A stretch of 40,133 nt of DNA from Candidatus Rokuibacteriota bacterium (GTDB lineage: Bacteria > Methylomirabilota > Methylomirabilia > Rokubacteriales > CSP1-6). Made by a program: the position numbers and the translations under genes. The notes below the pieces were generated by a model. It searched no databases and was not told the origin of the DNA. It worked only from the letters and a program-made list of their open reading frames with translations. Each line of letters starts with the position of its first letter. The stretch's first letter is position 1. Below, one piece after another: positions 1-16,310 of this stretch. The DNA lies in NCBI GenBank assembly GCA_003221615.1, contig QHSQ01000154.1, forward strand, positions 1-40,133, given 5' to 3'.

Positions 1-2
1 CG

Positions 3-569: not shown

Positions 570-596
570 GGTGCGCTTCCAGATAGAGGGGGAATC

Positions 597-1745: not shown

Positions 1746-1755
1746 AGGATCGGTG

Positions 1756-2523
1756 ATGGCGCCCAGCGGGATCGAGATTCCATCGCTCAAGGGGAAGGTG
1801 TCGGAGCAGGAGTGGGCGGTCCGGGTGGATCTGGCAGCCTGCTACCGGCTGCTGGTGCGCTACGGCTGGGAGGACCTGACCTTTACCCACGTCACGGTGC
1901 GGGTGCCGGGCGCCGAGGATCAGTTCCTGATCAACCCCTACGGGCTCTTCTTCGACGAGATCACGGCCTCGAGCCTGGTCAAGATCGATCTCGAGGGACG
2001 CAAGATCGGCGACTCGCCGTTCCCGGTGAACCAGGCGGGCTTCGTCATCCACAGTGCCATCCACGCCGCGCGCCACGACGCGCGCTGCGTGCTCCACACG
2101 CACACGGTGAGCGGCATCGCGGTCTCGACGCAACGCGCCGGCCTCTTGCCGATCTCGCAGCACGCGATGTCCGTCATCCCGAGCCTCGGCTATCACGACT
2201 TCGAAGGCATCGCGACGCGTGACGACGAGAAGCCGCGGCTGGTCGCGGATCTCGGCGACCACACGCACCTCATCTTGAGGAATCACGGGCTGATCACGGT
2301 GGGGGAGACCGTCGCGGACGCCTTCGTCGCGATGTACTTCCTCGAATCGTCCTGCGCGATCCAGGTGCGCGCCCAGTCCGGCGGCGGCGAGCTGATTCCG
2401 GTGCCGAAAGACGTCCTGGATGCCGCCTACGCCGGGCCGGCTCGGCCGCGCGGCCGCGGCGAGACGATCTGGCCCGGGCTGCTCCGGCGGCTCGACCGCA
2501 TCGATCCTTCCTACAAGACCTGA
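1756..2523 (+). CDS. Class II aldolase/adducin family protein
   Basis: About 255 residues of the zinc-dependent class II aldolase (AraD/FucA/adducin) fold. The metal motif HTHTVSG and the later RNHGLITVGE segment are both present, as expected for retro-aldol or decarboxylase members of the family. The ATG at 1756 is chosen because an AGGA Shine-Dalgarno at 1746-1749 is correctly spaced for it; an in-frame GTG at 1753 is possible. The gene follows the amidohydrolase by 10 bases on the same strand, so the two are probably co-transcribed. The C-terminus is a little longer than the fold and rich in Arg and Pro. It converges on the LLM-DUF3500 gene 13 bases away. The substrate is not identifiable. 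Confidence 0.9.
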   Translation: MAPSGIEIPSLKGKVSEQEWAVRVDLAACYRLLVRYGWEDLTFTHVTVRVPGAEDQFLINPYGLFFDEITASSLVKIDLEGRKIGDSPFPVNQAGFVIHSAIHAARHDARCVLHTHTVSGIAVSTQRAGLLPISQHAMSVIPSLGYHDFEGIATRDDEKPRLVADLGDHTHLILRNHGLITVGETVADAFVAMYFLESSCAIQVRAQSGGGELIPVPKDVLDAAYAGPARPRGRGETIWPGLLRRLDRIDPSYKT

Positions 2524-2536
2524 GCCGCGCCTTTCG

Positions 2537-4810
2537 TCAGTGGCTGTGGTCCGCTCTCGTGTGGTCGAACCGCGCGTGGTGCTGGCGGAGTAGATCCCTC
2601 CCGTAGTCGTTCCCGTTCGGCGTGCGGACCACCGTGTGGATGTGGTGCCGCGAGGGCGCGTCGTTGTCGAAGGCGATCCCGCGCTGGTGGTCGAACTCGA
2701 TCAGGATGACCGGGCTGTGGATCCGGTAGTAGAAGACACCGTCCTCGTCAGTGCCGCCCATCCACGCGAAGTACGTATGGTTGAGATGGCGCTTGACCTC
2801 GTTCCGTCTCGCCTCGGAGTGGCCCGGCCGGATACGTCCGATGTACGTCTCGAGCACGTCGAGCAGCATGCGCTGCTGGGTGGTCGTGAGGTCGCCCGAG
2901 ACGATGCCCTGGTATTGCATCTCGACGTTGTCACGAAACGCCGCGGTGAAGACTTCGGTGGGGAGCTCGGGGGCGAGGATCGCCCGATGGCGCTGCTCGG
3001 GCGTGAGCGCCCGCATCAGCGCCAGGCCCTGCCGCTCCTCGGCCTGGAAGACGCGCGTGCCGGCGTACGGGCCCTCGGTTGCCGCGACCGGCTCGGAGCC
3101 CATGAACATCGGGGTCATCACGACCTGGTCGCCGAGGACGAAGCAATTGACGATGAGGTGATGGCCGTCGATCTGCCATCCCCACGGCCCGTCGTGGGAC
3201 GGTATTCCCATCACGCTGAGCCAGTAGAGCCACTCGCCGTACTCGGCCTGGCTCCCCGTGATCGCCAGGACGAGCTCGTTCAGCCGCATGACGTCGCGTG
3301 CCGTCTTGAAGCCCTGCGTGCTGAGACTCTCCCGCACCAGCGCGAGCGCGCGATCGCGCTGCGCCGGGCTCATCTCGTCGAGCGAGAGGCCGTGGCGCAT
3401 GAGATACGGATGGATGTTGCTCCACCGTCGCCACGCGTCGCTCTCCAGGGGGAAGAGCGCGCGCTCTCGCTGCGGCTCGCTCAAGGAATCGACGAAGGCG
3501 CGTGCGGCGTCGGTGATTTGCCGGGTGGAAGCCCCCGTCTTCTGGATCTTGAAGAGCCCGGGAGCGACCCTGCCGCCGGCGGTGATTCCCTTGAACGGCT
3601 CGGCGACGAGCGCTTCACCGGTCTCGACGTATTTCTGGAGCTGCGGGGGCAGCTCCTGCTGCCGAGCGCGCGCGGACACCGGGGTGCGCTGCCGAACCTT
3701 GAGGCCGGGAGGAGGGCTCGGAGGAGGGCTCGGCATCGCGCGACCGCCTATCCGGCCGCCGGCGCCGAGCGCCGCCCGCACGGGCGGCAGCACCTCGCGG
3801 GCGACCCGAGCCATGAAGCCCCGCTCGGGATCGTCCGGCGCCGTCGGGTTCGGGATCGGGTGCAGGCACACGTAGTCGAACGCCGCGGGCGCCGACTGGA
3901 GCACGGCGAGCAGCTGCGTGACGATCTCGGCCGGCCCGCCGCGCAGGCAGAACGCGTCGGCGGCGGCATCGGGCAGGAAATCGACGACCTTGCCGCTCGC
4001 TTCCAGGTCGGGCGCGTGGTGGAAGTCGGGGAAGACGTTGCGCTCGCGCTTGAGCTTCTCGGGATCCGGCCCCGACCAGGAAAGGCGCGGCGGCCCGAAG
4101 AGCATCGGCGAGTATTCATAGTACCCGGCCGCCATCGACTTGCCGATCGTGAGCGCTCGGGTGGGCTCCTCCACGAGCACGGTGTGGAAGACGGCGCCGA
4201 GGCCGACCCTGGACGGGTCGCGGCCGGCGGCGGCCGCTCCCGCGCGGATCTCCTCGATCGACCTCGTGATGTTCGCCTGATGAGTTCCGACCCGGATGAA
4301 CACACCGTCGGCAACGCCGCCCGCCATGCGCAGGGTGCGTGGCCCGCCCGCCGCGATCCAGATCGGCACGGGCCGATGGTGCGGCAGGCGCGCGGGCTCG
4401 CGCGCGCCGACGTCGACCGCGCGGCCGTCGAGCAGCGCACGCATCAGGCGTGTGCTCGCCTCGAGCTCGCTGACGCGCGCCGGCTTGAGCCCGGCCAGCC
4501 GCACGGCGGTGTCGCCCACACCCCAGCCGAGCAAGGTGCGACCGGGCGCGAGCTCGTCGATCGTCGCGATCGACGACGCCGTCACGGTGGGGTGCCGGTT
4601 CACCGGATTCGACAGGAGCGTCGCGAGGAGAATGCGCTCGGTGACGCGGGCCGCCGCCGCCATCAGCACGTACGTGTCGCGCCGGCGGAGCTGTGAGTCC
4701 GGCTGGAACGCCGCGTCCCAGCCGAGCGTCTCGGCGCGCCGCACGTCGGCGGCGAAGGCGTCCACCGAGCGCGCGTCGAAGCGATTGAGACCGAAGCGGG
4801 GGAGCGCCAC
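2537..4810 (-). CDS. LLM-class flavin-dependent oxidoreductase fused to DUF3500 domain
   Basis: A 757-residue two-domain protein. Residues 1 to about 350 are a bacterial-luciferase-like (LLM) F420- or FMN-dependent oxidoreductase: the first strand RFGLNRF, the LGWDAAFQPD segment, the VNRHPTVTA stretch and GWGVGD are all typical. A Gly/Ala/Pro-rich linker (PSPPPSPPP, about 360-370) leads into a DUF3500 domain at about 385-735, recognised from GPWGWQIDGHHL, GSEPV and the terminal IEFDHQRGIAFDN and HIHTVVR stretches. LLM proteins usually end near residue 340 and DUF3500 proteins are usually free-standing. There is an in-frame Met at residue 359 (codon at 3736-3734) just before the linker, so a second internal start or a lost stop codon are alternatives. 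The GTG start lies 2 bases after the aminotransferase stop, so translation is probably coupled. Confidence 0.85.
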   Translation of the reverse strand: MALPRFGLNRFDARSVDAFAADVRRAETLGWDAAFQPDSQLRRRDTYVLMAAAARVTERILLATLLSNPVNRHPTVTASSIATIDELAPGRTLLGWGVGDTAVRLAGLKPARVSELEASTRLMRALLDGRAVDVGAREPARLPHHRPVPIWIAAGGPRTLRMAGGVADGVFIRVGTHQANITRSIEEIRAGAAAAGRDPSRVGLGAVFHTVLVEEPTRALTIGKSMAAGYYEYSPMLFGPPRLSWSGPDPEKLKRERNVFPDFHHAPDLEASGKVVDFLPDAAADAFCLRGGPAEIVTQLLAVLQSAPAAFDYVCLHPIPNPTAPDDPERGFMARVAREVLPPVRAALGAGGRIGGRAMPSPPPSPPPGLKVRQRTPVSARARQQELPPQLQKYVETGEALVAEPFKGITAGGRVAPGLFKIQKTGASTRQITDAARAFVDSLSEPQRERALFPLESDAWRRWSNIHPYLMRHGLSLDEMSPAQRDRALALVRESLSTQGFKTARDVMRLNELVLAITGSQAEYGEWLYWLSVMGIPSHDGPWGWQIDGHHLIVNCFVLGDQVVMTPMFMGSEPVAATEGPYAGTRVFQAEERQGLALMRALTPEQRHRAILAPELPTEVFTAAFRDNVEMQYQGIVSGDLTTTQQRMLLDVLETYIGRIRPGHSEARRNEVKRHLNHTYFAWMGGTDEDGVFYYRIHSPVILIEFDHQRGIAFDNDAPSRHHIHTVVRTPNGNDYGRDLLRQHHARFDHTRADHSH

Positions 4811-4812
4811 GA

Positions 4813-6219
4813 TCAGCTCGCGCCGAGCTGGCCGCCCATCTCCTGGATCGCCTTGTCGAGGACGGCGACCACGCGGTCGATCTCGGCGCGCGTGATCACC
4901 AGCGGCGGCGAGAGCACGATCGTGCTGCCAAGATGGCGGCCGCCGCCGGAGCGACCGACGATCACGCCGTTGCGCCGCGCGAAGTCGACGACACCCTTGA
5001 TCCGATCGGCCGGTATCGCCTCTTTCGTGCGGCGATCGCGGACGAGCTCGACGCCCGCGAAGAGTCCCTTGCCGCGCACGTCACCCACCCACGGATGCTT
5101 CAGGAGCGTGCGGAGCCCGTCGAGCAGATAGGCGCCGTTTTCGGCCGAGCGCTCGACCAGCCGCTCCTCGAGGATGATCTCGATGTTACGGTTGGCGACG
5201 GCGGCCGCGACCGGGTGGCCGCCATACGTCGAGATCTGGAACACCTGGCGGTTCTCGGACGGATCGCCCACGAACGACTTGAACACGTCGTTCCGGACCA
5301 CGGTGGCGGCGATCGGCAGGTAAGCGCTCACGATGCCCTTGGCGATCGCGACGATGTCGGGCCGCACCCCGGAATGCTGATGCGCGAACATCTTGCCGGT
5401 GCGGCCGAAGCCGTTGATGACCTCGTCGATGTGCAGGAGGCAGCCGTACTTCTTCGCGACGGCCGCGACCTCGGGCAGATAGTCGTCGGGCGGCACCGCG
5501 ACGCCGACGGCGCTCATGATCGGCTCCACCAGCACGGTCGACACCGTGTCCGGCCCCTCGCCCTGGATCGTCGCCTCGATGTTCTTCACGCACGCGAGCT
5601 CGCACGACGGATAGGTGAGCCCGAACGGACAGCGATAGCAGTAGGGCGGGGCCACGTGGACGAAGTCGTTGCCGCCGAGCGGCTCGAACTTCATCTTGCG
5701 GTCGCCCATTCCGCCGGCAGCCAGGGTGGCCAAGGTCGTGCCGTGGTAGCCCAGGTAGCGACTGATCGTCTTGTAGCGGTACTGGCCGGGGTTCTCGTGC
5801 TTGGTGTACTGCCGCGCGAACTTGAAGCCGGCCTCGTTCGCCTCGGAGCCCGAGGCCACGAAGTAGACGTGGTTGTCGCCGCCCAAGAGGCCGTTCACGC
5901 GCTGGGCGAGCTTGGCGGCGGGCTCGTTCATCGCTGTGTGCGGATAGTACGGAAGGGCGCGCATCTGGTCCGCGGCCACGTCGGCCAGCTCGGTACGGCC
6001 GTACCCGACGTTCACGCACCAGAGGCCGGCCATCGCGTCGAGGTATGCGGTGCCGTCGGCGTCGACGACGGTCGAGCCGTGGCCCTCGACGATCACGAGC
6101 GGCTCGGCCTCGAGCTGCCGGTGGGCGACCACCGGGTGCAGCACGTTGTCGAGGTCTTGCCTCACGACCGCCGACCGGCCGTCGACGTGGCCGGGACTGC
6201 CGCCTGCGGGCTGCGTCAT
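4813..6219 (-). CDS. Class III aminotransferase (omega-amino acid/taurine:pyruvate type)
   Basis: A 468-residue PLP-dependent class III aminotransferase. GSEAN (123-127) contacts the phosphate, Asp265 in HIDEVINGFGRTG pairs with the PLP nitrogen, and Lys294 in AIAKG forms the Schiff base. The frame is open upstream to 6384, but the ATG at 6219 has a strong AGGAGAG Shine-Dalgarno 7 bases before it and matches the family's usual beginning. A Cys-rich insert, C194-x2-C197 and C206-x3-C210, follows the LGYHGTT segment; it resembles the region seen in taurine-pyruvate and related omega-transaminases. A perfect TATAAT sits 30 bases upstream. The LLM-DUF3500 gene follows 2 bases downstream and may act on the same pathway. 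The exact amino donor is unknown. Confidence 0.92.
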   Translation of the reverse strand: MTQPAGGSPGHVDGRSAVVRQDLDNVLHPVVAHRQLEAEPLVIVEGHGSTVVDADGTAYLDAMAGLWCVNVGYGRTELADVAADQMRALPYYPHTAMNEPAAKLAQRVNGLLGGDNHVYFVASGSEANEAGFKFARQYTKHENPGQYRYKTISRYLGYHGTTLATLAAGGMGDRKMKFEPLGGNDFVHVAPPYCYRCPFGLTYPSCELACVKNIEATIQGEGPDTVSTVLVEPIMSAVGVAVPPDDYLPEVAAVAKKYGCLLHIDEVINGFGRTGKMFAHQHSGVRPDIVAIAKGIVSAYLPIAATVVRNDVFKSFVGDPSENRQVFQISTYGGHPVAAAVANRNIEIILEERLVERSAENGAYLLDGLRTLLKHPWVGDVRGKGLFAGVELVRDRRTKEAIPADRIKGVVDFARRNGVIVGRSGGGRHLGSTIVLSPPLVITRAEIDRVVAVLDKAIQEMGGQLGAS

Positions 6220-6249
6220 CGCGTTCTCTCCTGGCCTGGATTCGGCTGG

Positions 6250-6255
6250 ATTATA
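6250..6255 (-). promoter_or_regulatory. -10 box (TATAAT) of the aminotransferase gene
   Basis: A perfect TATAAT reads on the minus strand 30 bases before the aminotransferase ATG, with the AGGAGAG ribosome site between them. No good -35 is seen at 16-18 bases, so the promoter may depend on an activator or on the -10 alone. Confidence 0.55.
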
Positions 6256-6287
6256 CGCTGACGCCGGCTCGATCTCTCCAGGACCGT

Positions 6288-6328
6288 GGCGAGCGCGCCG
6301 TCCCCGCGCAGGGAAGGGCGCGCTCGCC
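6288..6328 (-). terminator. Perfect 12-bp inverted repeat downstream of the pal region
   Basis: GGCGAGCGCGCC (6288-6299) and its exact reverse complement (6317-6328) are separated by 17 bases. On the minus strand the hairpin would form just after the pal remnant and before the aminotransferase promoter. The place fits transcription termination of the pal operon. No run of T follows, so it is not a textbook intrinsic terminator. Confidence 0.5.
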
Positions 6329-6335
6329 GCGCGGC

Positions 6336-6378
6336 CTACTCCGGCTTGATCAGGAAGTGCGCGCCGCCGCGGGATCGA
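6336..6378 (-). pseudogene. Remnant of a second pal C-terminus
   Basis: The minus strand here reads GRSRGGAHFLIKPE followed by a stop. The intact pal gene that ends 98 bases upstream finishes with RRAHFLAKPG. The shared AHFLxKPx-stop block also aligns codon by codon at the DNA level over the last ten or so codons, whereas the sequence before it does not continue as a Pal domain. The simplest reading is the tail of a duplicated or recombined pal copy left behind the present one. Confidence 0.5.
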
Positions 6379-6433
6379 CCTCACGCGCAGACGGCTGGTC
6401 GATTCGCGGTACTGACGTCCCTGCGCCCTCGTC

Positions 6434-7033
6434 TTACCCGGGCTTGGCGAGGAAGTGCGCGCGCCGGTTCTTGGCCCAGCAGGCTTCGCCGCGCTCGGTG
6501 CAGACGGGGCGCTGGTCCCCGTAGCTGACGATCGAGATCCGGTTTGCCTGGATGCCGAGCGCGGTCAGATAGCCCATCGCGGCCTTCGCACGCCGCTCGC
6601 CGAGCGCCAGGTTGTACTCCGGGGTCCCCCGCTCGTCACAGTGGCCTTCGATCAGCACCAGATGCCTCTCGTTGCTCTTGAGCCAGGCGGCGTTGGCGTC
6701 AAGGATCTTCGCGTCTCCTGGCCGGATATCGTATTTGTCGAAATCGAAGTAGACGTCCTTGAGGGCCGCGACATCCGAGAAGTCACGGGGCGACGGCCGC
6801 GCCCCCGACGCCGCCGACGCGCTATCCGTTCCTCCCGGCGCGGTACGGCTGGTCCCTCCGGCCGCGTCCGCGGATGGCGAAGGCGCCGGCTGCGCCCGGC
6901 CGGCCGCGGTCGAGCCCGCGGAGCCGCCGGAACCGGGTGCCGAAGCCGACGCCGGCAGCGGCACGGGGTCCTTCGCACATCCGCTCGCGACGAGGATCAG
7001 GAGCGTGGCCGGGACCATCAAGATGCTTCTCAT
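6434..7033 (-). CDS. pal: Peptidoglycan-associated lipoprotein (Pal/OmpA family)
   Basis: A 199-residue outer-membrane lipoprotein that binds peptidoglycan as part of the Tol-Pal envelope system. The N-terminus is a lipoprotein signal with lipidated Cys19 (VASGC). A Pro/Ala/Ser-rich spacer runs to about residue 85, then the OmpA domain follows: YFDFDKYDIRP, then GHCDERGTPEYNLALGERRA with the diaminopimelate-binding region, and SYGDQRP near the end. The start has a GGAGAT Shine-Dalgarno. The upstream neighbour is a small membrane coiled-coil protein; tolB and the other tol genes are not in the window. A remnant of a second Pal C-terminus lies just downstream. The assignment as Pal is firm. Confidence 0.94.
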   Translation of the reverse strand: MRSILMVPATLLILVASGCAKDPVPLPASASAPGSGGSAGSTAAGRAQPAPSPSADAAGGTSRTAPGGTDSASAASGARPSPRDFSDVAALKDVYFDFDKYDIRPGDAKILDANAAWLKSNERHLVLIEGHCDERGTPEYNLALGERRAKAAMGYLTALGIQANRISIVSYGDQRPVCTERGEACWAKNRRAHFLAKPG

Positions 7034-7065
7034 AAGTTGATCTCCTCGCCTGACCCCATGGGGGC

Positions 7066-7305
7066 CTATTTTTTGCCCTGGCTCAGAGCCTGCTCAAGGC
7101 GGCCGCGGCGCTCGCGCTCGCTCTGAAGCTCCTCTTCGGTCTTCTTGAGCTTGTCTTGCAGCCCTTTGACCTCGTCGGCCTTCTGCGTCTGCAGCGTGCG
7201 AAGCTCGTCGCGCGTCCGATTCGCCGCCGTTCCCCACCACAGGAAGCCGGCGAGAACTCCCACTGCCAGCCCCGCGACGACCGCGATGGCGATCATCCGC
7301 GTCAT
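7066..7305 (-). CDS. Small membrane-anchored coiled-coil protein
   Basis: 79 residues: an N-terminal transmembrane helix (about 3-25, with FLWWG at its end), then a charged, heptad-like helix rich in Glu, Lys and Leu (about 30-75) that should form a coiled coil. An AGGAG Shine-Dalgarno precedes the ATG closely. Pal starts 32 bases downstream on the same strand, so the two are probably one operon. Its likely role is envelope-related, with the helix on one side of the inner membrane, but no named family is recognised and the function is unknown. Confidence 0.75.
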   Translation of the reverse strand: MTRMIAIAVVAGLAVGVLAGFLWWGTAANRTRDELRTLQTQKADEVKGLQDKLKKTEEELQSERERRGRLEQALSQGKK

Positions 7306-7369
7306 AACTCCTCGCCCTCCCCCTCGGCTCTTGCCGCCGATGCTGTTTCACTGTGAAGGCTACTCCTTA

Positions 7370-7588
7370 TCACCTTTTCCGGCCGCCTTTCTTCTTGCGC
7401 GGGGCACTGGCGGCGCATGGAATCACCTCAACAGCGACCGCGACGATTCCGGAATGCGCCTGAATCTCGCCGGAAACACCTTCGGGCGCCATATCCGGCG
7501 CAGCACCGCTCCCATGTGAGGCCAAAGACCAGACCCCTCGGTAAGTCGCGAGCTTGCCGAGCGGGTTTTCTTTTCTAGGTCGGCTCAT
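7370..7588 (-). CDS. Hypothetical small basic protein (doubtful)
   Basis: A 72-residue frame beginning MSRPRKENPLGKL and ending in a basic tail (APRKKKGGRKR). The frame runs open upstream to 7636, but an earlier start would overlap the divergent gene at 7638, so the ATG at 7588 is preferred. No Shine-Dalgarno is obvious. The sequence resembles no family I know. The surrounding DNA has lower G+C than the core genes, which makes a chance open frame less likely but does not rule it out. Confidence 0.3.
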   Translation of the reverse strand: MSRPRKENPLGKLATYRGVWSLASHGSGAAPDMAPEGVSGEIQAHSGIVAVAVEVIPCAASAPRKKKGGRKR

Positions 7589-7637
7589 TTTGGACCGTTT
7601 AGGGTGGACTAGAGATGGTGGTGGGCACGTTTTCAAA

Positions 7638-8132
7638 ATGACCGAAATATTTTTCTCGGGCCTGGCCGGGGGTCTCCTTGGGGGGCTCTTAACCGCGATC
7701 TACACGGGCCTCATCGAGCGCCATCGCCGACGCCTCGAGCTCATGTCGGCCGTCGTCGACTGGGCTAATGAGGCTTACAGCCAGATCCAATTTCTTCACG
7801 CGCGGAAGGATGCCGGCTATCGCGGCAAAAAGATCGATCGCAGAGAATACCGCGTTCAAAGCCGGGAGCTTCGAGATTTGCTGCTCTCGAACGATGTTCT
7901 GAAGGCTCAGGTCGCGATCATCTATGGAGAAGGGCGTGTGATGCAGATGATGAACGCTCTCAACGGACATATGCTGGCGGCGGCGCAATCATTATGGACG
8001 GCGCGATCGACTACCTGGAGCACTGTCGGACCAGCTTTGATGGCAAGCTTCGCGGACACGATCGATCCTCTCCGGTCTTCTTTTGAGCGCGAGCTGTTTC
8101 AAGCGACCCGTAGCGCCTGGAGGCCGTACTGA
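7638..8132 (+). CDS. Membrane-anchored hypothetical protein, possibly 3'-truncated
   Basis: 164 residues from the ATG at 7638. A Gly/Leu-rich transmembrane helix (about 4-24) is followed directly by a basic patch (ERHRRRLE) and then an amphipathic, mostly helical region with many charged residues, probably cytoplasmic. The frame is open back to 7554, but those codons overlap the divergent small gene. No family is recognised. After the TGA at 8130-8132 the same frame continues open for 66 more codons that look coding, so the stop may be a nonsense mutation. Base composition is more AT-rich than in the core genes around it. Confidence 0.6.
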   Translation: MTEIFFSGLAGGLLGGLLTAIYTGLIERHRRRLELMSAVVDWANEAYSQIQFLHARKDAGYRGKKIDRREYRVQSRELRDLLLSNDVLKAQVAIIYGEGRVMQMMNALNGHMLAAAQSLWTARSTTWSTVGPALMASFADTIDPLRSSFERELFQATRSAWRPY

Positions 8133-8174
8133 TCGGCTCGGCCGTGGCCACGACAGCGAGGTTCGCTTTGGCTC

Positions 8175-8333
8175 GTGTCGACGAGACCCACGTCGCGCAG
8201 GTCTGACCTTGCTCGCCTCATAGATAGCTCCAAGTCTTGCCGCGCCGCCGATGTCCTGGACGGACTGAAGCGTGAGGTCTTCGAGTTGTACCTCGAGGAC
8301 ACTCGCGCACTTCGGCGAGGGATCCGGTTCTGA
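8175..8333 (+). CDS. Possible small ORF or detached 3' end of the preceding gene
   Basis: In the same frame as the preceding gene, after its stop, a GTG at 8175 opens 52 codons ending in a segment that looks like real helical protein (VLDGLKREVFELYLED then RALRRGIRF). It is either a separate small gene or the tail of the upstream gene cut off by the stop at 8130. The remaining sequence of the 346-base gap 8133-8478 shows nothing else I can support apart from the ribosome site of the next gene. Confidence 0.3.
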   Translation: MSTRPTSRRSDLARLIDSSKSCRAADVLDGLKREVFELYLEDTRALRRGIRF

Positions 8334-8478
8334 TTGCTGATGTGGGGAAAGTCTCCTAATAATGCCGAGTGGGCTCGAATACGAAATCAGCGTCCGGAAT
8401 AGCTGCCCGCGCGGAACTGCAGCAGCATGCTCCGGGCCGCGACGACGACTACACATGGTGACGATTAGAGGAGCGCCG

Positions 8479-9633
8479 ATGATTCGATTGCTGATCATTG
8501 TCCTCGCCAGCATCTTCGCGGCCGCGAACCCATCTCCGGGCCAGGCCGCATCGCCCGAGCAACGCTGCAGTGCCCTCGGGGTGAATTGCCTCTGCTCCGA
8601 GCCGCTCGAGATGACCGCGTATGTGAAGAATGCGTCGGGAGTTGATGCCGTGTGGAATCCCAATGACTCGACCACGAAACAATGCAATGGCGAGAATAAT
8701 TATGACCACGGCTCAGCGATCAACCGGGGCGACTCGGATCCTCCCCTCATCGGATCTGACCCTGCTGTCCTCGCCGCTTTCCCTGCTGGCGCCTCGGTCC
8801 CGCGGTACTTCCGGGGCTCCGAAGGCCATACGGGCACCTATGAGTTTGGACACGTGCTCGCGGCTAGCGACCCGCGCACGCGCGTCGCCGTGCGCTGGTA
8901 CGTCTATATGTCGCCGAATTACGTCTGGACGACCGGCAAGACCTCTGGCGTGCACTGCCTGAACAGCGCGAAGTGGTTCAGCCTGAGGACCGATGCTGGC
9001 GCATCGACGCAATGGGACACGACGGACGGCGCCAACACCACGCCGCTGATCTATGGCTGGACCACGAGCGTGGTCGGCTGGTCGCCGCAGCTCGACTGCT
9101 GCCGGTTCGGGCCGCGCTGGACCTTTGCCGGGCAGGTGCCGGCCGAGGTCGCATCGCAGAAGGTCGGGAAATGGTACCGCTACGAGGTGGTCCTGCGGCG
9201 GATGACGACGGGCAGCACGTCCGTCATCCTTGAAGCCTACCGGAAGAACGTCACGGACAACAAGGCCGAGTTCAAGATCATTGATACCTCGATCGCCTGC
9301 ACCGGTTGCAACAGTTCCGGCCGGTCGTTCGATGACTGGGGCAATGGGGGGTCGACGACGAGGCTCAAGACACCGAACCAGACGCAGCTCACGCGGGTCG
9401 AACCGAACTTATTCCGGAACGACGACGGCGCCCACAAGTGTGGCGGCTGGCGAGCCTACTCTCACATGCTCGTCGCGGCGTGGAGCACCGATGCCGGCCA
9501 ACGGATCGGTCCGGCCACGGAGATCGAATCAAGCGGCGGGGCTACGATGAACGCGCCCCGCGCCACGCCAGTGACGCCGGCGACCCTCGGCGTGGTGCTC
9601 GTCAGGAATGAGCTGAAGGCGAAGGCGCGATGA
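8479..9633 (+). CDS. Secreted Cys-rich protein of unknown function
   Basis: 384 residues from the ATG at 8479, chosen over upstream in-frame starts because of an AGAGGAG Shine-Dalgarno 6 bases before it and because it exposes a clean signal peptide (about 1-24, ending near GQAA). The mature protein has about a dozen Cys (for example CLC near 37-39 and a CC pair in LDCCRFG), many aromatic residues and alternating beta-like segments with Trp and Tyr (RWYVYMSP, KWYRYEVVL). That pattern suggests an extracytoplasmic beta-sandwich, perhaps jelly-roll or lectin-like, but this is inference. There is no PEP-CTERM-type tail. Its 3' end overlaps the convergent exosortase chimera by 32 bases. It sits in the lower-G+C islet. 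Confidence 0.7.
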   Translation: MIRLLIIVLASIFAAANPSPGQAASPEQRCSALGVNCLCSEPLEMTAYVKNASGVDAVWNPNDSTTKQCNGENNYDHGSAINRGDSDPPLIGSDPAVLAAFPAGASVPRYFRGSEGHTGTYEFGHVLAASDPRTRVAVRWYVYMSPNYVWTTGKTSGVHCLNSAKWFSLRTDAGASTQWDTTDGANTTPLIYGWTTSVVGWSPQLDCCRFGPRWTFAGQVPAEVASQKVGKWYRYEVVLRRMTTGSTSVILEAYRKNVTDNKAEFKIIDTSIACTGCNSSGRSFDDWGNGGSTTRLKTPNQTQLTRVEPNLFRNDDGAHKCGGWRAYSHMLVAAWSTDAGQRIGPATEIESSGGATMNAPRATPVTPATLGVVLVRNELKAKAR

Positions 9634-10648
9634 GACTCGCTGCCCTCGCGATCTTGCCTCTCTCGTCGCTGCTCGGCCGCGCCATCCGCATCGCGAGCCC
9701 GATCAGCACCACGAGCGCCGCGAGCCATGTCACCCAGCCGACCAGCTCATGTGCGAGCGTCGGGCCGCGAACGAAGTCGACGCCCCACCGTTCCACGCCG
9801 AGACTCAGGATCGCCACGCGCAGGGCGTTCGCGCCAAGCGCCAGCGGGACCACGGCCACGAGCAGCAGCGCCCCACGCCGCATCTGCGGGGCCAGGAGCA
9901 ACGCGCCCACGCCGAGCGTGAGGATGAGGCCGAGCCCGTTGCAGCCCTCCGTCACCCGTATCGTCACGGATCGGAGGTCGATGTAGGCTTGATACTCGCC
10001 GTAGGCGCCGAGGCCAGAGCGCAGAGCGGCTGGGACGTCCACCGCGCGCAGGATCGCCGTTGTGCCCATCGCCGTGACGTATTGCAGCGGCGGACTGAGC
10101 CGGCGGAGCGCGCCGCGGACCGCATCGCTCGGAGTGATGAGCAGGGGCAGCGGAACGCCGACGACGCGCAGATCGCCGCCTGTAGCCGCGATCCCCGGAA
10201 AGCTGAGTTGCACCGAGGACCAGTCGATCCGGTCATTGCTCACCCCGTACGTCCCGGGCTGCGCCGTGTCCAGGGTCATCCCCTGTGGAAGCCAGAGACT
10301 GATATAGCTGTAGCCGTTCGAGTTGTGGTCGGATCCGGGGTTCGGGGGACCGACGAGGAGTCCCTCAAGGAGAATCAGGGGGTCGCCCCGCCCCGGAAAA
10401 TACGGATTCCAGCTGCCCTGCCAGACCCCGGTTCCCGTGACGCTGAAGCTACCCAGGGGGCTCACGCGCTGGCCCGTTTCGGTGTTCCAGAGCATGTGAC
10501 CGTTGAGCACGACCGGGTCTGACCCGAGCTGCGGCACCTCCCAGGTGATGTTCTCGGCGATGAAGTCGATCAGTGAAGCCTCCACGGGCAGTGCTGACGA
10601 CAGTGCCAGGATGAGCGCCACAAGGACGATCTGAACGTGGGTCCGCAT
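9602..10648 (-). CDS. Chimera: signal peptide and secreted domain fused to the C-terminal half of an exosortase
   Basis: 348 residues from the ATG at 10648, which has GAGGTG just upstream. Residues 1-24 are a signal peptide ending PVEA. Residues 25 to about 160 are a Gly/Ser/Asn-rich, beta-like extracytoplasmic segment similar in style to PEP-CTERM substrate proteins. From about 165 (PLPLL) the protein reads as the second half of an exosortase: EGCNGLG with Cys236, GANALRV with Arg277 and AHELVGW with His300, the three conserved catalytic positions of the exosortase/archaeosortase superfamily, on membrane helices at about 238-278 and 300-320. The usual four or so N-terminal membrane helices are absent. 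CNG replaces the common CSG. No PEP motif is seen. It may be a true fusion or the product of a deletion joining a substrate gene to a sortase gene. Confidence 0.75.
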   Translation of the reverse strand: MRTHVQIVLVALILALSSALPVEASLIDFIAENITWEVPQLGSDPVVLNGHMLWNTETGQRVSPLGSFSVTGTGVWQGSWNPYFPGRGDPLILLEGLLVGPPNPGSDHNSNGYSYISLWLPQGMTLDTAQPGTYGVSNDRIDWSSVQLSFPGIAATGGDLRVVGVPLPLLITPSDAVRGALRRLSPPLQYVTAMGTTAILRAVDVPAALRSGLGAYGEYQAYIDLRSVTIRVTEGCNGLGLILTLGVGALLLAPQMRRGALLLVAVVPLALGANALRVAILSLGVERWGVDFVRGPTLAHELVGWVTWLAALVVLIGLAMRMARPSSDERGKIARAASLIAPSPSAHS

Positions 10649-10758
10649 TGAACACCTCATTTCCAGCAAGAGCCAAAGATCTAGATTCCACCCTTGTAGC
10701 CGAAGAGCGAGTCCGTCAATCCGTGAAAGAATTTGCACACACTCGTGCGGGCGGCATC

Positions 10759-10782
10759 GCCTGTGGAAAAGCCTGTGGAAAA
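10759..10782. repeat. 12-bp tandem repeat, two copies
   Basis: The unit GCCTGTGGAAAA occurs twice head to tail. It lies in the 345-base stretch 10649-10993 that holds no gene I can support on its own, only this repeat, a 17-bp repeat at 10862 and the decayed start of an XRE regulator. Confidence 0.8.
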
Positions 10783-10861
10783 GGTCGTGAGCGCCGCACC
10801 CTTCGCAGAGAAGTCACCACGATCGGCGCGCGACTGGTGTCGCCCTCGCTGCTCGACTACC

Positions 10862-10895
10862 ATCGAGACGCGCGAGGCATCGAGACGCGCGAGGC
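10862..10895. repeat. 17-bp tandem repeat, two copies
   Basis: ATCGAGACGCGCGAGGC occurs twice with no gap. A 17-base unit is not a multiple of three, so a copy change would shift any frame running through it. This fits non-coding or decaying DNA upstream of the XRE remnant. Confidence 0.8.
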
Positions 10896-10928
10896 CGGCC
10901 TCGCTATCCCCGGGGCGTGTTCCGGGAA

Positions 10929-11137
10929 GGGTATCTGAAGTAGCGGCTCTTGCACATTCGGAGTGGCGCAGTGATATTTGTCGCCACGGAGATGTGTCCC
11001 AGGGCTATATCGCAAAGCTGGAGCCGTCGAATCGTACCGGCAAGTCGAAGACGGTGCGGAAGAACAATCCATCGGTCGCGATCCTCAAGCGCTTGGCGCG
11101 CGTCCTCGGCGTGCCGGTGACGGAGCTGCTGGAATGA
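10929..11137 (+). pseudogene. 5'-degraded XRE-family HTH regulator
   Basis: The frame ending at 11137 contains VSQGYIAKLE (from 10994), then a spacer, then NPSVAILKRLARVLGVPVTELLE (split here only by description). These are the recognition helix and the last two helices of a Cro/C1-type helix-turn-helix. The preceding SDICRHGD can be aligned to helix 2, but helix 1 is not clear and no usable start codon lies nearby: the frame has only a distant TTG at 10733. This suggests a decayed 5' end. Its TGA overlaps the next ATG (ATGA), as in an active coupled pair, so a short functional HTH peptide starting at the GTG at 10994 remains possible. Confidence 0.5.
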
Positions 11138-11397
11138 TGGCACCTGAGCCGACGTATCCGCCTCTCTCGACGAGAGAGATCCAAACCTTACCCGAAGGCG
11201 CCCGCGTCATCGTGGCGTGGGCCGAAGGGAGTGCCGGTCCCCACGAGTATCGCGTGCACTGGCGCCGCGGCGAGCCGTACGCGCAGACCGATGAGGACCA
11301 TCGCCGGGGGCACGTGGACCTTGAGAAGTGGCTGACGTACTATATCGGTCCGCGGCGCCCGTTCACGCGAGTCTGGGCCCTGCCCGCTCCGGCGTGA
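11134..11397 (+). CDS. Hypothetical small protein coupled to the XRE remnant
   Basis: 87 residues starting at an ATG that overlaps the preceding TGA by four bases (ATGA); a second ATG follows at 11137. The product has an acidic and aromatic composition with a VIVAWAEG strand, a repeated Arg/His stretch (YRVHWRRGE) and KWLTYYIGP, and looks like a small compact domain. No family is recognised. It is one of a string of overlapping small genes up to the tRNA, a layout seen in phage-derived and other mobile small-gene cassettes. Confidence 0.5.
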   Translation: MMAPEPTYPPLSTREIQTLPEGARVIVAWAEGSAGPHEYRVHWRRGEPYAQTDEDHRRGHVDLEKWLTYYIGPRRPFTRVWALPAPA

Positions 11398-11476
11398 CCG
11401 AACCACGGCGGAAGTCGAGCGGATACACAACACGGCGGCGTGGCTTCGCGCCCGCCTGCTCACGTTGGAGCTCGGG

Positions 11477-11611
11477 ATGGCTAGCGAAGAGATGACAGTC
11501 GCGCTATCAGCGGCGGATGTCGAGCCTCCTGACGGGGAGGACGACGAAACCCACGAGGCCGACCACGACGTCTACGCGGCGTGCCGGCAGTTCGAGGGGC
11601 TGGGGAAGTGA
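11477..11611 (+). CDS. Hypothetical acidic microprotein
   Basis: 44 residues from the ATG at 11477, strongly acidic in the middle (DGEDDETHEADHD) and ending CRQFEGLGK. The same frame remains open and protein-like upstream (AEVERIHNTAAWLRARLL, about 11408-11461) but without ATG or GTG, so the real start may be an unusual codon further up, or a frameshift may separate it from the GTG at 11394 that overlaps the previous stop. Its TGA overlaps the next GTG (GTGA). No family is recognised. Confidence 0.4.
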   Translation: MASEEMTVALSAADVEPPDGEDDETHEADHDVYAACRQFEGLGK

Positions 11612-11835
11612 GCTTAGCGGTGCCGCCAATGCGGTTGAGGTTGATCAAGTGCCCGGAGTGCCCCCATCGGGTCAGTGACCAAGCCGATAGGTGCCCGGCC
11701 TGCGGACATGCGATCAAGCGTGGATTTCTGGGGCGCAGTGGGACCGAAGGCACTTTCACCATCGCCGGTCTTGTCGTGCTCATCGTCGTGGTCGTACTGA
11801 CGATGGCGACGATGTGCGCCAGAATCGTGCACTGA
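11608..11835 (+). CDS. Zinc-ribbon protein with one transmembrane helix
   Basis: 75 residues from the GTG at 11608, whose GTGA overlap with the previous stop suggests coupling; an ATG at 11629 is the alternative. Near the N-terminus CPEC and CPAC, separated by about twelve residues, form a rubredoxin-like zinc ribbon. A long hydrophobic helix (about 50-70, rich in Val, Leu and Ile) follows. Such zinc-ribbon/TM proteins are common and functionally undefined. It is the last of the overlapping microgenes before tRNA-Val. Confidence 0.6.
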   Translation: MSLAVPPMRLRLIKCPECPHRVSDQADRCPACGHAIKRGFLGRSGTEGTFTIAGLVVLIVVVVLTMATMCARIVH

Positions 11836-11944
11836 GAGGGCCGGGCACCGTCGGCGCGATTTCCGGAAGACCTCGTGGTGACCTCCAGGACGTCGCGCGG
11901 AAGCTCACGGCGCTCGTTTCAGGGCACGTCGGGGGGAGAATCGC

Positions 11945-11972
11945 TTGACAGCCGTTCTGTAAGTGGTTAACT
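11945..11972 (+). promoter_or_regulatory. Promoter of tRNA-Val
   Basis: A consensus TTGACA (11945-11950), a 16-base spacer and TTAACT (11967-11972; TAACTT one base later gives 17) stand 10 bases before the mature 5' end of the tRNA. This is a housekeeping sigma-70-type promoter in the expected place. Confidence 0.8.
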
Positions 11973-11982
11973 TCCCGGCCAC

Positions 11983-12059
11983 GGACGATTAGCTCAGTTG
12001 GTTAGAGCGCTGGCCTCACATGCCAGAGGTCACTGGTTCAAGTCCAGTATCGTCCACCA
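11983..12059 (+). tRNA. tRNA-Val (anticodon CAC)
   Basis: A complete 77-base tRNA with encoded CCA. The acceptor stem is GGACGAT paired with ATCGTCC, the D stem is GCTC/GAGC, the anticodon stem is CTGGC/GCCAG around loop CTCACAT, and the T stem is ACTGG/CCAGT around TTCAAGT. Loop positions 34-36 read CAC, which decodes GUG (Val). It lies between the microgene islet and the NYN gene and has its own promoter. No duplicated 3' end was noticed nearby, so there is no sign that an integrase used it as an attachment site. Confidence 0.97.
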
Positions 12060-12107
12060 TTAACGCGGTAGAGAATTCACGGTTTGGTTTTCGCCCGGGA
12101 GCCGCCC

Positions 12108-13010
12108 ATGAAGGTCAGCGTTTTCTTTGACGGTCAGAACTTCTACCGTTCTCTCCAGCGCTACGACGAATCGCTCCGGGTCGACTACGACCGGCTCGCC
12201 GCCTGGATCACCCAGGCCGTCGGCGGCCCAGGCGCGATCTTCGCGGGCGCTCACTACTACGTCGGCGTGTCCGCGGACGCGCCGCCGCTGGTCGAGGGCT
12301 TTCTCAAGGGTCTCGAACTCCGCCCGGGCTACTTCGTCAAGCGCGAGCTGCGCGTGCGCCGCTCCGGGCGCTGCCCGGCATGCAGCGCCGACTACGAGTA
12401 CACGACCGAGAAGCGCGTCGACACGCGGCTGGTGGCGGACATCATCCAGTACGCCGCGATCGGTGCCTTCGACGCGGCGGTGCTCGTGTCGGGCGACGAC
12501 GATTTCGTGCCGGCGGTCGAGGCGGTGAACTCCCTCGGCAAGCAGGTGTGGGTCGCGACGTGGTCGGCCGAAGAGCTCTCCAAGGACCTGCGCGTGCGCT
12601 GCTTCGGCCAGATCCACCTGAGCGACGGCATCGGGGCGTTCCGCGTCGAGCGGCCGCGGCCGTTCGAGCGCGCCCCGACCCGTATGGCGCCCTCGCGCCT
12701 GGCCCGCACGACGGCACAGCCGGTCCCGGTCTCGGGCCTGGCGCTCGAGCGTGCGGTCCAGGAGCTGCAGCGTGCCGAGGCACGCCTGCCGCACGTGAGC
12801 CGCGGATACTTCGTGATGCGCTGGAAGTCGCACCAGCTGCCGCCGGTCGGCGCCGACCGAGAGGCGCTCGTGCAGCAAATGATCGGCGCCGGACTCGCCG
12901 AGGAATTCGAGGTGAAGGACGGTGAGGGCCGCAGCGTGACCGCGATCCGGAGCCGGGAGCCGGACGGAAACGTCCGCGAGCCCGACGGCAACATCGCGCT
13001 GCCCGGTTAG
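12108..13010 (+). CDS. NYN-domain protein (LabA/DUF88-like), putative ribonuclease
   Basis: 300 residues from the ATG at 12108, which has GGGAG 7 bases upstream. The N-terminal two-thirds is a NYN (PIN-like) nuclease fold: FFDGQNFY with Asp8, DTRLVADI with Asp105, and VLVSGDDDF with Asp130-132 give the acidic metal-binding cluster. A CPAC pair (89-92) in the middle may bind zinc with other residues. The C-terminal 80 or so residues (LALERAVQEL and on, with GAGLAEEFEV) look like a winged-helix or OST-HTH-like RNA-binding module. Family members are thought to cleave RNA. It starts 48 bases after the tRNA and could be co-transcribed with it. Confidence 0.88.
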   Translation: MKVSVFFDGQNFYRSLQRYDESLRVDYDRLAAWITQAVGGPGAIFAGAHYYVGVSADAPPLVEGFLKGLELRPGYFVKRELRVRRSGRCPACSADYEYTTEKRVDTRLVADIIQYAAIGAFDAAVLVSGDDDFVPAVEAVNSLGKQVWVATWSAEELSKDLRVRCFGQIHLSDGIGAFRVERPRPFERAPTRMAPSRLARTTAQPVPVSGLALERAVQELQRAEARLPHVSRGYFVMRWKSHQLPPVGADREALVQQMIGAGLAEEFEVKDGEGRSVTAIRSREPDGNVREPDGNIALPG

Positions 13011-13013
13011 ACT
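13008..13013 (+). promoter_or_regulatory. Possible -10 box for a leaderless MmgE/PrpD mRNA
   Basis: TAGACT, whose first three bases are the stop codon of the NYN gene, ends 9 bases before the MmgE/PrpD ATG. No Shine-Dalgarno is present between them. A transcript starting 6-8 bases after this hexamer would have almost no leader. Confidence 0.35.
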
Positions 13014-13022
13014 CGGGCCGGC

Positions 13023-14384
13023 ATGACACTGGCCGAGCGCCTGACCGAGTTCGCGGCGCGCCTCGAGTTCGAGGATATCCCGGCCGACGTCGTCGCGAAC
13101 GTGCGCCTGCGCGCGCTCGACATCCTCGGCATCGCGCTCGCCTCTTCGACTTCCGACCTGGCGCCTTCGGTGCTCGGCGCGGTGAATGGTTGGGGGCGCG
13201 GTGCCTGCAGCGTCATCGGCTCGAGCCTGACGGCGCCGCCCCCGCTCGCGGCGCTCGCCAACGGCGCCTTCGCGCACGGGCTCGACTTCGACGATACGCA
13301 CGCCATCTCGATCACCCACGCCTCGTCGGTGATCTTGCCCACGGTACTGGCGCTCGGCGAAGCCGGCGGGTCCAGCGGTCGCGCGGTGGTGACGGCGGCG
13401 GTCGCCGGATACGAGGCGATGACACGGGTCGGCATGGCCGCGCCAGGGCAGTTCCACGCGCGCGGCTTTCACGCGACGGCAGTGTGCGGAACGTTCGGCG
13501 CGACGCTTGCCGCCGGTCGGCTCGAGGGTCTCGACTGCGGTCGACTCACCGCGGCGCTCGGCATCGCCGGCAGCTTCGCCTCGGGAATCAACGAGCACCT
13601 CGAGGACGGGTCGTGGGTGAAGCGAGTCCATCCGGGATGGGCCGCACACTCCGGTATCGTCGCGGCCGGCCTCGCGCGCGGCGGATTCAGCGGGCCCGCG
13701 ACGATCTTCGAGGGTCGCTTCGGCTTGTATCGCACGTTCCTCCGCGCCGAGCCCGACCGATCGCCGTTCGACACGCTCGGCAAGGAGTGGGAGACGCTTC
13801 GCGTCGGATTCAAGCCGTACCCGTGCTGCCACTACAATCACGCGTACCTCGACTGCGCGCTCGCGCTTCGTCGCGAGCACCGGATCGAGCCCGATGCGAT
13901 CGAGGGGATCGAGTGCCTGGTGCCCGCCGGCGAGGTCCCGATCGTCTGCGAGCCGCGCGAATCCAAGCTGCGGCCGCGGACTCCGTACGACGCCCAGTTC
14001 AGCCTCGCGTACTCGGTGGCGGCGGCGTTGGTCGACGGCCGTGTCGGCCTGGACACCTACGCGAAGGACCGGATCAGCGACGAGCGCACGCTGGCGCTGG
14101 CGGCTCGAGTCCAGCACACCGTGGATCCCGCCTCACGGTTCCCCGACGGGTTCCCAGGATGGGTTCGGGTTCGACTCCGCGACGGCAGGCTCGTCGAGGC
14201 GCGTGAGCCCGACGGTCGTGGCAGCGCCGCGCGGCCGCTCGAGCCCGGCGCGATCGTCGCCAAGTTCCACGACAACGCTCGGCGCGCGCTGCCCGCGGAC
14301 AGGGTGGCCGCTCTCGAAAAGCTCGCGCTGTCGGTCGACTCGCTCGACACCGTTGGGACGCTCCTGGCCGCCTGCCGCGTCTGA
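13023..14384 (+). CDS. MmgE/PrpD family protein
   Basis: 453 residues, the usual length for the MmgE/PrpD (2-methylcitrate dehydratase/itaconate decarboxylase/cis-aconitate decarboxylase) fold. Recognisable segments are the early LDILGIALASS, the NGAFAHGLDFDDTHA motif near residue 80-95, GFHATAVCGTFGA, and the C-terminal PYDAQFSLAYSVAAAL. These shape the active site in PrpD and IDS-epimerase relatives. The substrate of this clade is usually unknown. It follows the NYN gene by 12 bases. The start lacks a Shine-Dalgarno but has a -10-like hexamer just upstream. Confidence 0.93.
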   Translation: MTLAERLTEFAARLEFEDIPADVVANVRLRALDILGIALASSTSDLAPSVLGAVNGWGRGACSVIGSSLTAPPPLAALANGAFAHGLDFDDTHAISITHASSVILPTVLALGEAGGSSGRAVVTAAVAGYEAMTRVGMAAPGQFHARGFHATAVCGTFGATLAAGRLEGLDCGRLTAALGIAGSFASGINEHLEDGSWVKRVHPGWAAHSGIVAAGLARGGFSGPATIFEGRFGLYRTFLRAEPDRSPFDTLGKEWETLRVGFKPYPCCHYNHAYLDCALALRREHRIEPDAIEGIECLVPAGEVPIVCEPRESKLRPRTPYDAQFSLAYSVAAALVDGRVGLDTYAKDRISDERTLALAARVQHTVDPASRFPDGFPGWVRVRLRDGRLVEAREPDGRGSAARPLEPGAIVAKFHDNARRALPADRVAALEKLALSVDSLDTVGTLLAACRV

Positions 14385-14420
14385 TCGCGCCTTCCGGAAT
14401 TTGGCCCTCTCTCGCAGCGT

Positions 14421-14439
14421 TATCGCTGGGTTAGCGATA
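14421..14439. repeat. 7-bp inverted repeat between MmgE/PrpD and the next gene
   Basis: TATCGCT (14421-14427) and AGCGATA (14433-14439) flank a 5-base loop. It lies in the 93-base gap after the MmgE/PrpD stop and before a -10-like box. It could be a weak terminator or a binding site; there is no T run. Confidence 0.35.
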
Positions 14440-14464
14440 GGTGTCGCGTCGCTCGGCGAGGGTG

Positions 14465-14470
14465 TACGAT
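14465..14470 (+). promoter_or_regulatory. Possible -10 box of the small exported protein gene
   Basis: TACGAT ends 7 bases before the ATG at 14478, and no ribosome site lies between them. Its position fits the leaderless pattern seen elsewhere in the window. Confidence 0.3.
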
Positions 14471-14477
14471 CGAATGT

Positions 14478-14873
14478 ATGAAGCGCGCTCTGGTGATCGC
14501 CCTCACGGTGCTTTTCGCGACGCCGGCCTGGTCGCAAGACGTGCAGATCAAGAAGCCGGCACCCTCCGTTCCCCGCGAGGAACGCGACGTGATCCCGCCC
14601 GGTCTGCAGGAAGAGACGCGGCCGAGCGACGCCGACCGCTATCCGCGCGGCGGCCAGGTGCAGCACGATCCGGCGTTCATCGGGCCGTTGTCCAAGCCGC
14701 GAGAGACGCCGACCTCTACCGGACGCTACGGGATAGCCGGGTGGGTGTCACCCTCCACGCCGGTTGGCTCGCCGCACTCCGGATGGAGCGAGAGCAGCGG
14801 CGTCTTCGCGCTGGGCTTCTCGATCACGTGGGACGGCCCGCCGCCCGCCCGACGTCCGGCTCCCGCGCCCTGA
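14478..14873 (+). CDS. Small exported Pro-rich protein
   Basis: 131 residues. A signal peptide of about 20 residues ends at PAWSQ. The mature part is Pro- and Arg-rich with low complexity (KKPAPSVP, PPPARRPAPAP) and a short hydrophobic strand, FALGFSITW, near the end. No family is recognised; it is probably periplasmic or outer-membrane-associated. It stands alone between MmgE/PrpD and the PHP gene, all on the plus strand. Confidence 0.7.
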   Translation: MKRALVIALTVLFATPAWSQDVQIKKPAPSVPREERDVIPPGLQEETRPSDADRYPRGGQVQHDPAFIGPLSKPRETPTSTGRYGIAGWVSPSTPVGSPHSGWSESSGVFALGFSITWDGPPPARRPAPAP

Positions 14874-14915
14874 TTCGGTGATCCGCCCGAACGTTCCCCC
14901 CAAAGAGCGCGGCTG

Positions 14916-15473
14916 ATGCCCTGGCTCCGGGGTAACCTGCACGCTCACACGACTTTCTCGGACGGCGTCAAGGAACCGGCTCAGCTCGTCGCGGCGTACG
15001 AAGCGCTCGGCTACGATTTCCTCGCCATCACCGATCACGAGAACTGGATCGACGACCGCTACTGGAGCGCGATCCCCAGGGTGTCCTCGAAGCTCCTTCT
15101 CTTCCACGGCATCGAGCTCAACTGGTCGCGCTTCGATCAGCACATCGGCAAGGTGTCCGGCGAGCGCGAGACGCTTCACGTCCTGAACCATCCGGCGCGC
15201 TACCAGCTGAGCGTGGCCCAGACGCTCGAGCGCATCCGCCGCATCGGCGCCGGCGGCATCACGCTCGACGCCATCGAGGTGACCGACACCGGCCAGCGCC
15301 GGTCGCTCTACGAGTCGCCGGAGATCCCGCTCGTGAAGATCGCGACCGACGACGCACACGGGCCCATCCACTTCGGCCGGGCGTGGGTCGAGGTCGACGC
15401 CAGGCGCGACCGCGACGCGATCATCCGCGCGATCCGCGCCGGCGAGTTCCGGCTGGGCTTCGCGAACGACTAG
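14916..15473 (+). CDS. PHP-domain phosphoesterase-like protein
   Basis: 185 residues of the PHP (polymerase and histidinol phosphatase) fold. The first metal motif, NLHAHTTFSDG, supplies His9, His11 and Asp16. ITDHEN supplies Asp40 and His41, HGIEL follows, VLNHPARY gives a further His, and ATDDAHGP near the end gives the last metal ligands. This is a short stand-alone version without a polymerase or phosphatase partner domain. It probably hydrolyses a phosphoester of an unknown small molecule. mqnD starts 9 bases downstream, so the two may be expressed together, although PHP proteins are not known steps of menaquinone synthesis. Confidence 0.88.
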   Translation: MPWLRGNLHAHTTFSDGVKEPAQLVAAYEALGYDFLAITDHENWIDDRYWSAIPRVSSKLLLFHGIELNWSRFDQHIGKVSGERETLHVLNHPARYQLSVAQTLERIRRIGAGGITLDAIEVTDTGQRRSLYESPEIPLVKIATDDAHGPIHFGRAWVEVDARRDRDAIIRAIRAGEFRLGFAND

Positions 15474-15482
15474 GACCCCGGC

Positions 15483-16310
15483 ATGGCGACGGTGAGGATC
15501 GGCCACAGCCCCGACGCGGACGACGCCTTCATGTTCTATGCGCTCACCGCCGGGAAGGTGAAGATTCCGGGGGTGACGGTCGAGCACGTGCTCGAGGACA
15601 TCGAGTCGCTGAATCGGCGGGCGCGCACCGCGGAGCTCGAGGTGACGGCGGTGTCTTTCGCCACCTACCTCCTGATCGCCGATCAATACCGGATGATGGA
15701 TCCCGGCGCGTCGATGGGGAAGGGCTACGGCCCGATCCTGGTGGCGCGCGGCCCGATTCCCAGGGCCGAGCTCGAGGAGCGCGTGGTCGCGATCCCCGGC
15801 AAGCACACCACCTCGGCGCTGCTCCTGCGCCTCTACGTCGGCGACCCGCCGCTGATCGAGGTCGCCTTCGACAAGATCCCTCAGGCCGTGCTCGACGGCC
15901 AGGCCGAGCTGGGGCTTCTGATTCACGAGGGCCAGATCACCCATCCGAAGATGGGGCTCACGAAAGTTCTCGACCTGGGCGAGGCCTGGCAGGCCGACAC
16001 GGGGCTGCCGCTGCCACTCGGCGTCAACGTGATGCGCCGGGACCTCGGCGAGGACCTCCATCGCGCGCTGTCGCAGGGGCTGCGCGACTCGATCGCCTGG
16101 GCTCACGCGAACGTCGACGAGGCGCTCGAGTACGCGATGCGCTACGGGCGGGGGATCGACAAGGAAACCTGCCGGCGATTCGTTCTCATGTACGTCAACG
16201 ACTACACGCTGGCGCTCGGCCGTGACGGGCGCGCCGCGATCGAGCGCCTGTTCGCGATGGCCCACGCCAAGGGCCTGATCGCCGAAGTCCCGCCGATCGA
16301 CCCCGTCTAG
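15483..16310 (+). CDS. mqnD: 1,4-dihydroxy-6-naphthoate synthase (futalosine pathway)
   Basis: 275 residues of the periplasmic-binding-protein-like MqnD family, which converts cyclic dehypoxanthine futalosine to 1,4-dihydroxy-6-naphthoate for menaquinone synthesis. The N-terminal IGHSPDADDAFMFYAL is the family signature. SFATYLLIADQYRMM and KGYGPILVA follow, then GKHTTSALLLRLY and GLLIHEGQ. An AGGA ribosome site overlaps the stop of the PHP gene. The 3' end overlaps the convergent mqnC by four bases, so mqnD and the mqnC-mqnE pair meet tail to tail. Confidence 0.96.
   Translation: MATVRIGHSPDADDAFMFYALTAGKVKIPGVTVEHVLEDIESLNRRARTAELEVTAVSFATYLLIADQYRMMDPGASMGKGYGPILVARGPIPRAELEERVVAIPGKHTTSALLLRLYVGDPPLIEVAFDKIPQAVLDGQAELGLLIHEGQITHPKMGLTKVLDLGEAWQADTGLPLPLGVNVMRRDLGEDLHRALSQGLRDSIAWAHANVDEALEYAMRYGRGIDKETCRRFVLMYVNDYTLALGRDGRAAIERLFAMAHAKGLIAEVPPIDPV

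Follow-up and report, generated by a model that had tools for sequence, protein, structure and literature searches.

A gene family in one Rokubacteria genus that joins an exported segment to the second half of an exosortase

Here we describe a gene in a 40,133-nucleotide stretch of DNA (the window) from a soil bacterium, a Rokubacteria relative, whose product joins a signal peptide and an exported segment to the second half of an exosortase. A congeneric genome carries three genes of the same two-part design, and we hold with high confidence that this architecture represents a real, selected gene family. The protein is a genuine member of a small family, which the searches found in a single Rokubacteria genus only. 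In the open-access literature, we found no report of a design that combines an exported domain with half an exosortase.

Architecture of the fused protein

The fused gene occupies positions 9602–10648 of the window on the minus strand and encodes 348 residues, with an ATG at 10648, a stop codon at 9602–9604 and a ribosome-binding-like GAGGTG directly upstream of the ATG (10653–10658, minus strand). Residues 1–24 (10577–10648, minus strand) form a signal peptide by hydropathy, ending LALSSALPVEA↓S, a cleavage-like site read by eye. It is followed by a Gly/Ser/Asn-rich exported segment of 139 residues (residues 25–163; 10160–10576, minus strand), to which profile and sequence searches assigned no known family. 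The second half of an exosortase, with three membrane helices, comes last (residues 164–322; 9683–10159, minus strand), as delimited by a PF09721 match at residues 161–320, the AF2 model and hydropathy. Codon periodicity is strong and stays in frame across the junction near 10160, with a GC3 of 0.83 in the exported part versus 0.84 in the exosortase part. GC3 thus does not shift at the junction, and the window gene has neither a frameshift nor a non-coding join there. The initial annotation had described an uninterrupted frame with these three parts, and the coordinates, the PF09721 match and the motifs bear it out.

The exosortase half matches PF09721 at profile positions 100–252 of 254 (E = 4.2e-18; 66.1 bits, gathering score 25.7 bits). 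It scores above the cut-off of TIGR04178, the catalytic-core model that serves as the exosortase/archaeosortase signature (44.4 vs 23 bits), and below that of TIGR02602, the full-length exosortase model (47.8 vs 105.55 bits). The invariant motifs of EpsH are CxG, NxxR and HxxxG, with two invariant residues each (PMC1569441). The window copy is 35–39% identical to the exosortases of the genus, yet all six invariants are present (C236, G238, N274, R277, H300 and G304), in the motifs C236NG, N274ALR277 and H300ELVG. The codons of Cys236, Arg277 and His300 lie at 9941–9943, 9818–9820 and 9749–9751, respectively, all on the minus strand. In the alignment, the window copy is about four residues short in the first helix region and lacks the Arg/Gln that comes after CxG.

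By hydropathy, the protein has a signal peptide and, after the Cys, three helices, short of the at least eight membrane helices that define a full-length exosortase, and the helices ahead of the Cys, which possibly bind substrate, are absent. The published EpsH topology model places the catalytic triad at the outer ends of helices (PMC1569441), and the helices retained in the window protein are those that bear it. If the exported part faces outward, the triad residues would fall on three successive helices, each at the outer end, in agreement with the EpsH model. In the AF2 model of the window protein, the exported part is poorly predicted and pLDDT is mostly 60–92 from residue 173 onwards; a PDB fold search with the predicted model returned no significant match. 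No fold was assigned to the exported parts of the family, because the pLDDT of their structure models is mostly below 50.

The window protein has an N-terminal signal peptide, as PEP-CTERM proteins do, and its C-terminus is the three-helix exosortase half. It contains neither a match to PF07589 (PEP-CTERM) nor a C-terminal PEP motif followed by a single helix and a basic tail. Judged by sequence, it is an exosortase homologue by the Pfam criterion, with fewer than eight predicted helices, and not a PEP-CTERM protein. Searched against the 95 genomes of the phylum, the exported segment gave weak, chance-level matches at most; it had no NCBIfam match and nothing convincing among PDB sequences. 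With neither a PEP-CTERM match nor a family, the segment does not establish the substrate-like domain proposed in the initial annotation.

Recurrence and selection in the genus

The congener Candidatus Rokuibacteriota isolate AR23 (G007, a MAG) carries this design in three genes. Two are complete (C21, 347 aa; C145, 229 aa), while the third (C82) ends at a contig end inside the fused gene. In each copy, a signal peptide ending PAHA↓D is followed by an exported part and then by the exosortase half. It had been considered that this locus alone might be fused, with relatives carrying the halves as separate genes; the three genes in a sister species show otherwise and point to a real small gene family instead of a one-off accident. 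Two further congeners, G008 and G003, hold decayed or broken pieces of the family, and one G008 piece resembles an internally deleted copy with its upstream region still there.

We searched 369 genomes, 95 of the phylum and 274 of a second class, and saw no long exported domain on an exosortase half elsewhere. Setting aside a small number of weak read-through matches, all in very long G050 and G065 frames, the remaining exosortase matches in the 95 phylum genomes were full-length, pieces from contig ends or broken genes, or half-only frames of ~170–220 aa. Of the 112 exosortase matches in the second class, 109 span the greater part of the profile and three cover only half of it, in frames of 169–237 aa. 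None of four half-only proteins inspected has an exported domain. Since the other matches surveyed are full-length, broken or half-only, the design is limited to one genus in the genomes searched. A single-protein search of genome contigs gave no match, and neither did family scans of viral contigs and plasmids. Full-length exosortases are encoded separately in the window genome and its sister genomes, and ordinary PEP-CTERM proteins ending VPEP-helix-RR are found in the genus, the window genome included.

Comparisons among the G007 copies show purifying selection on the exosortase half (dN/dS 0.18, 0.31 and 0.37; dS 0.6–0.8). The exported part is variable, differing in length by more than 100 residues and giving dN/dS values of 0.39–1.32, which are rough because the copies differ by large gaps. 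This result is confined to the G007 lineage; for the window lineage, which lacks a close relative, the evidence is the retention of the motifs at 35–39% identity to genus exosortases. The linker VSVPELAILPRLPR is identical in C21 and C82 and starts like a PEP motif; no model recognises it as one, so the resemblance is a hint at most. The exported part of C82 has no free-standing homologue in the genus.

The Cys and Arg, in CxG and NxxR, are retained in all complete copies, and the His also in the window copy. The G007 stretch KDWIQVGTTGLAL aligns with HNWIGKGVWGLTL of a canonical exosortase, and thus Lys replaces His in the G007 copies. A looser alignment to more distant exosortases puts an Arg, three residues earlier, at the His position of these copies, from which the HxxxG motif is absent. 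The catalytic triad was initially annotated as preserved. This holds for the window copy (C236, R277 and H300), but not across the family, since the G007 copies have Lys for His. The archaeosortase ArtA requires Cys173, Arg214 and Arg253 (PMC9263693). Because ArtA has Arg at the third site, a basic residue other than His is conceivable there and might be compatible with activity.

Genomic setting and origin

Synteny places the fused gene in a lineage-specific variable segment (7348–11942) with a tRNA-Val(cac) at its edge (11983–12059, plus strand). Window positions 1–7345 and 11925–16000 are syntenic with sister genomes. The segment measures 4.6 kb in the window genome versus ~0.9 kb or more in the sisters, where it holds only a MarR-type gene. 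A mobile element was considered and rejected, as there is no integrase-type gene among the variable-segment genes scanned and there are no long terminal repeats. The segment also includes a frame at 10733–11137 with a weak, partial HTH_3 match. About 30 bases at the tail of the fused gene are shared with a convergent secreted-protein gene (8476–9633, plus strand) that belongs to no Pfam or PHROG family.

C82 lies in the same neighbourhood, adjoining the MarR-type gene, with its relative orientation reversed. An OmpA/Pal-like gene present in the window (6434–7033) and in four sisters is missing at the C82 locus (L049 1713–2041). The window genome and G007 share 96% identity in the neighbouring aminotransferase, whereas the exosortase half of the window copy is 46% identical to that of C21 and ~39% to that of C82. 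Thus, either the fused genes evolve very fast or they are not simple orthologues. In two domain trees with long branches, bootstrap support for a union of the window and G007 lineages is 54% and 47%, values compatible with either one or two fusion events. The fusion may have arisen when a deletion brought two neighbouring genes together; no donor gene pair was found.

EpsH homologues occur nearly always among exopolysaccharide genes (PMC1569441). C145 adjoins glycosyltransferase and polysaccharide flippase genes, and C21 lies beside an NTP_transf_5 gene, which is suggestive of an exopolysaccharide setting. Among the minority of window genes scanned, exopolysaccharide genes are not apparent around the window copy. 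The upstream region is conserved in C82, C145 and the G008 remnant (loci L049, L044 and L047), and this leader holds the sigma-54-like TGGCACGGATCTTCC. A sigma-54 promoter was rejected, since TGGCACGGATCTTCC is -24-like but has the wrong -12, and nothing of the kind is seen in the window copy.

Proposed function and comparison with known systems

We propose, at about even odds, that the window protein is a membrane-tethered mini-exosortase with a variable, swappable exported domain attached in cis. We infer its topology, catalysis and action in cis from the Cys, Arg and His at the predicted outer helix ends. The signal peptide would export the variable domain to the periplasm, and the chain would then pass into the membrane with its three C-terminal exosortase helices; the predicted periplasmic ends of these helices would carry Cys, Arg and, in the window copy, His. 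The exported domain might be the enzyme's own cargo, cleaved at the linker, or else it might dock a partner and so deliver it to the active site. Short half-only exosortase-like proteins (~170–220 aa) show that halves can stand alone. We rate the putative catalytic activity of the fused protein at or just under an even chance. It is tempting to speculate on self-sorting, in which the putative mini-exosortase would cleave its own linker and release or conjugate the exported domain, a version that we find rather unlikely. If it were true, three helices would be enough for exosortase chemistry. The fused protein offers a natural test of which part of an exosortase catalysis needs, and of cargo processing in cis.

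The main rival explanation is that the exosortase half is a pseudo-enzyme that anchors the exported domain in the membrane and provides a handle for its sorting, without catalysis. Such an anchor would fit the substitution of the third catalytic residue in the G007 copies, the absence of the five helices on the substrate side and the decayed copies in G003 and G008. However, every complete copy keeps Cys and Arg with CxG and NxxR, the window copy keeps His too, and loss of His need not end activity, given that the third residue of ArtA is an Arg (PMC9263693). We consider this explanation somewhat unlikely, while giving it real weight.

The fusion could also be an accident in decay, in which recombination between a secreted-protein gene and half an exosortase gave a functionless gene that spread by duplication or hotspot insertion and is now being lost. 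Its place in a lineage-specific segment beside tRNA-Val and the long branches in the trees are consistent with this history, and the fragments in G003 and G008 show that the family decays easily. It is nonetheless quite improbable given the purifying selection on the G007 exosortase half, the intact frames with strong codon periodicity and the upstream regions conserved in C82, C145 and the G008 remnant. The host genome is a 7.24-Mb MAG with an estimated contamination of 8.55%, which raises the question of an assembly artefact or a chimera of two neighbouring genes. This is extremely improbable, as a second MAG (G007) has the design three times, codon periodicity is unbroken over the junction and the flanks are syntenic with sister genomes.

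Compared with exosortase/EpsH (PF09721, TIGR02602), the proposed mini-exosortase has a homologous second half, with CxG, NxxR and HxxxG in the window copy, but a signal peptide and exported segment stand where the N-terminal helices are. Short exosortase/archaeosortase-family proteins of the TIGR04178 type (~170–220 aa) likewise match only the catalytic half of the profile, and those inspected have no exported domain, unlike the window protein. PEP-CTERM proteins (PF07589) resemble it in having a signal peptide and an exported segment rich in Gly, Ser and Asn, and two G007 copies have VPELAIL ahead of the exosortase half; however, the PEP-CTERM signal with its single helix and basic tail is absent from the window protein. 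Published exosortase fusions, in which an EpsI domain or a CAAX protease is attached to EpsH proteins with at least eight helices (PMC1569441), likewise unite an exosortase and a second domain in one chain, whereas in the window protein an exported domain replaces half of the exosortase.
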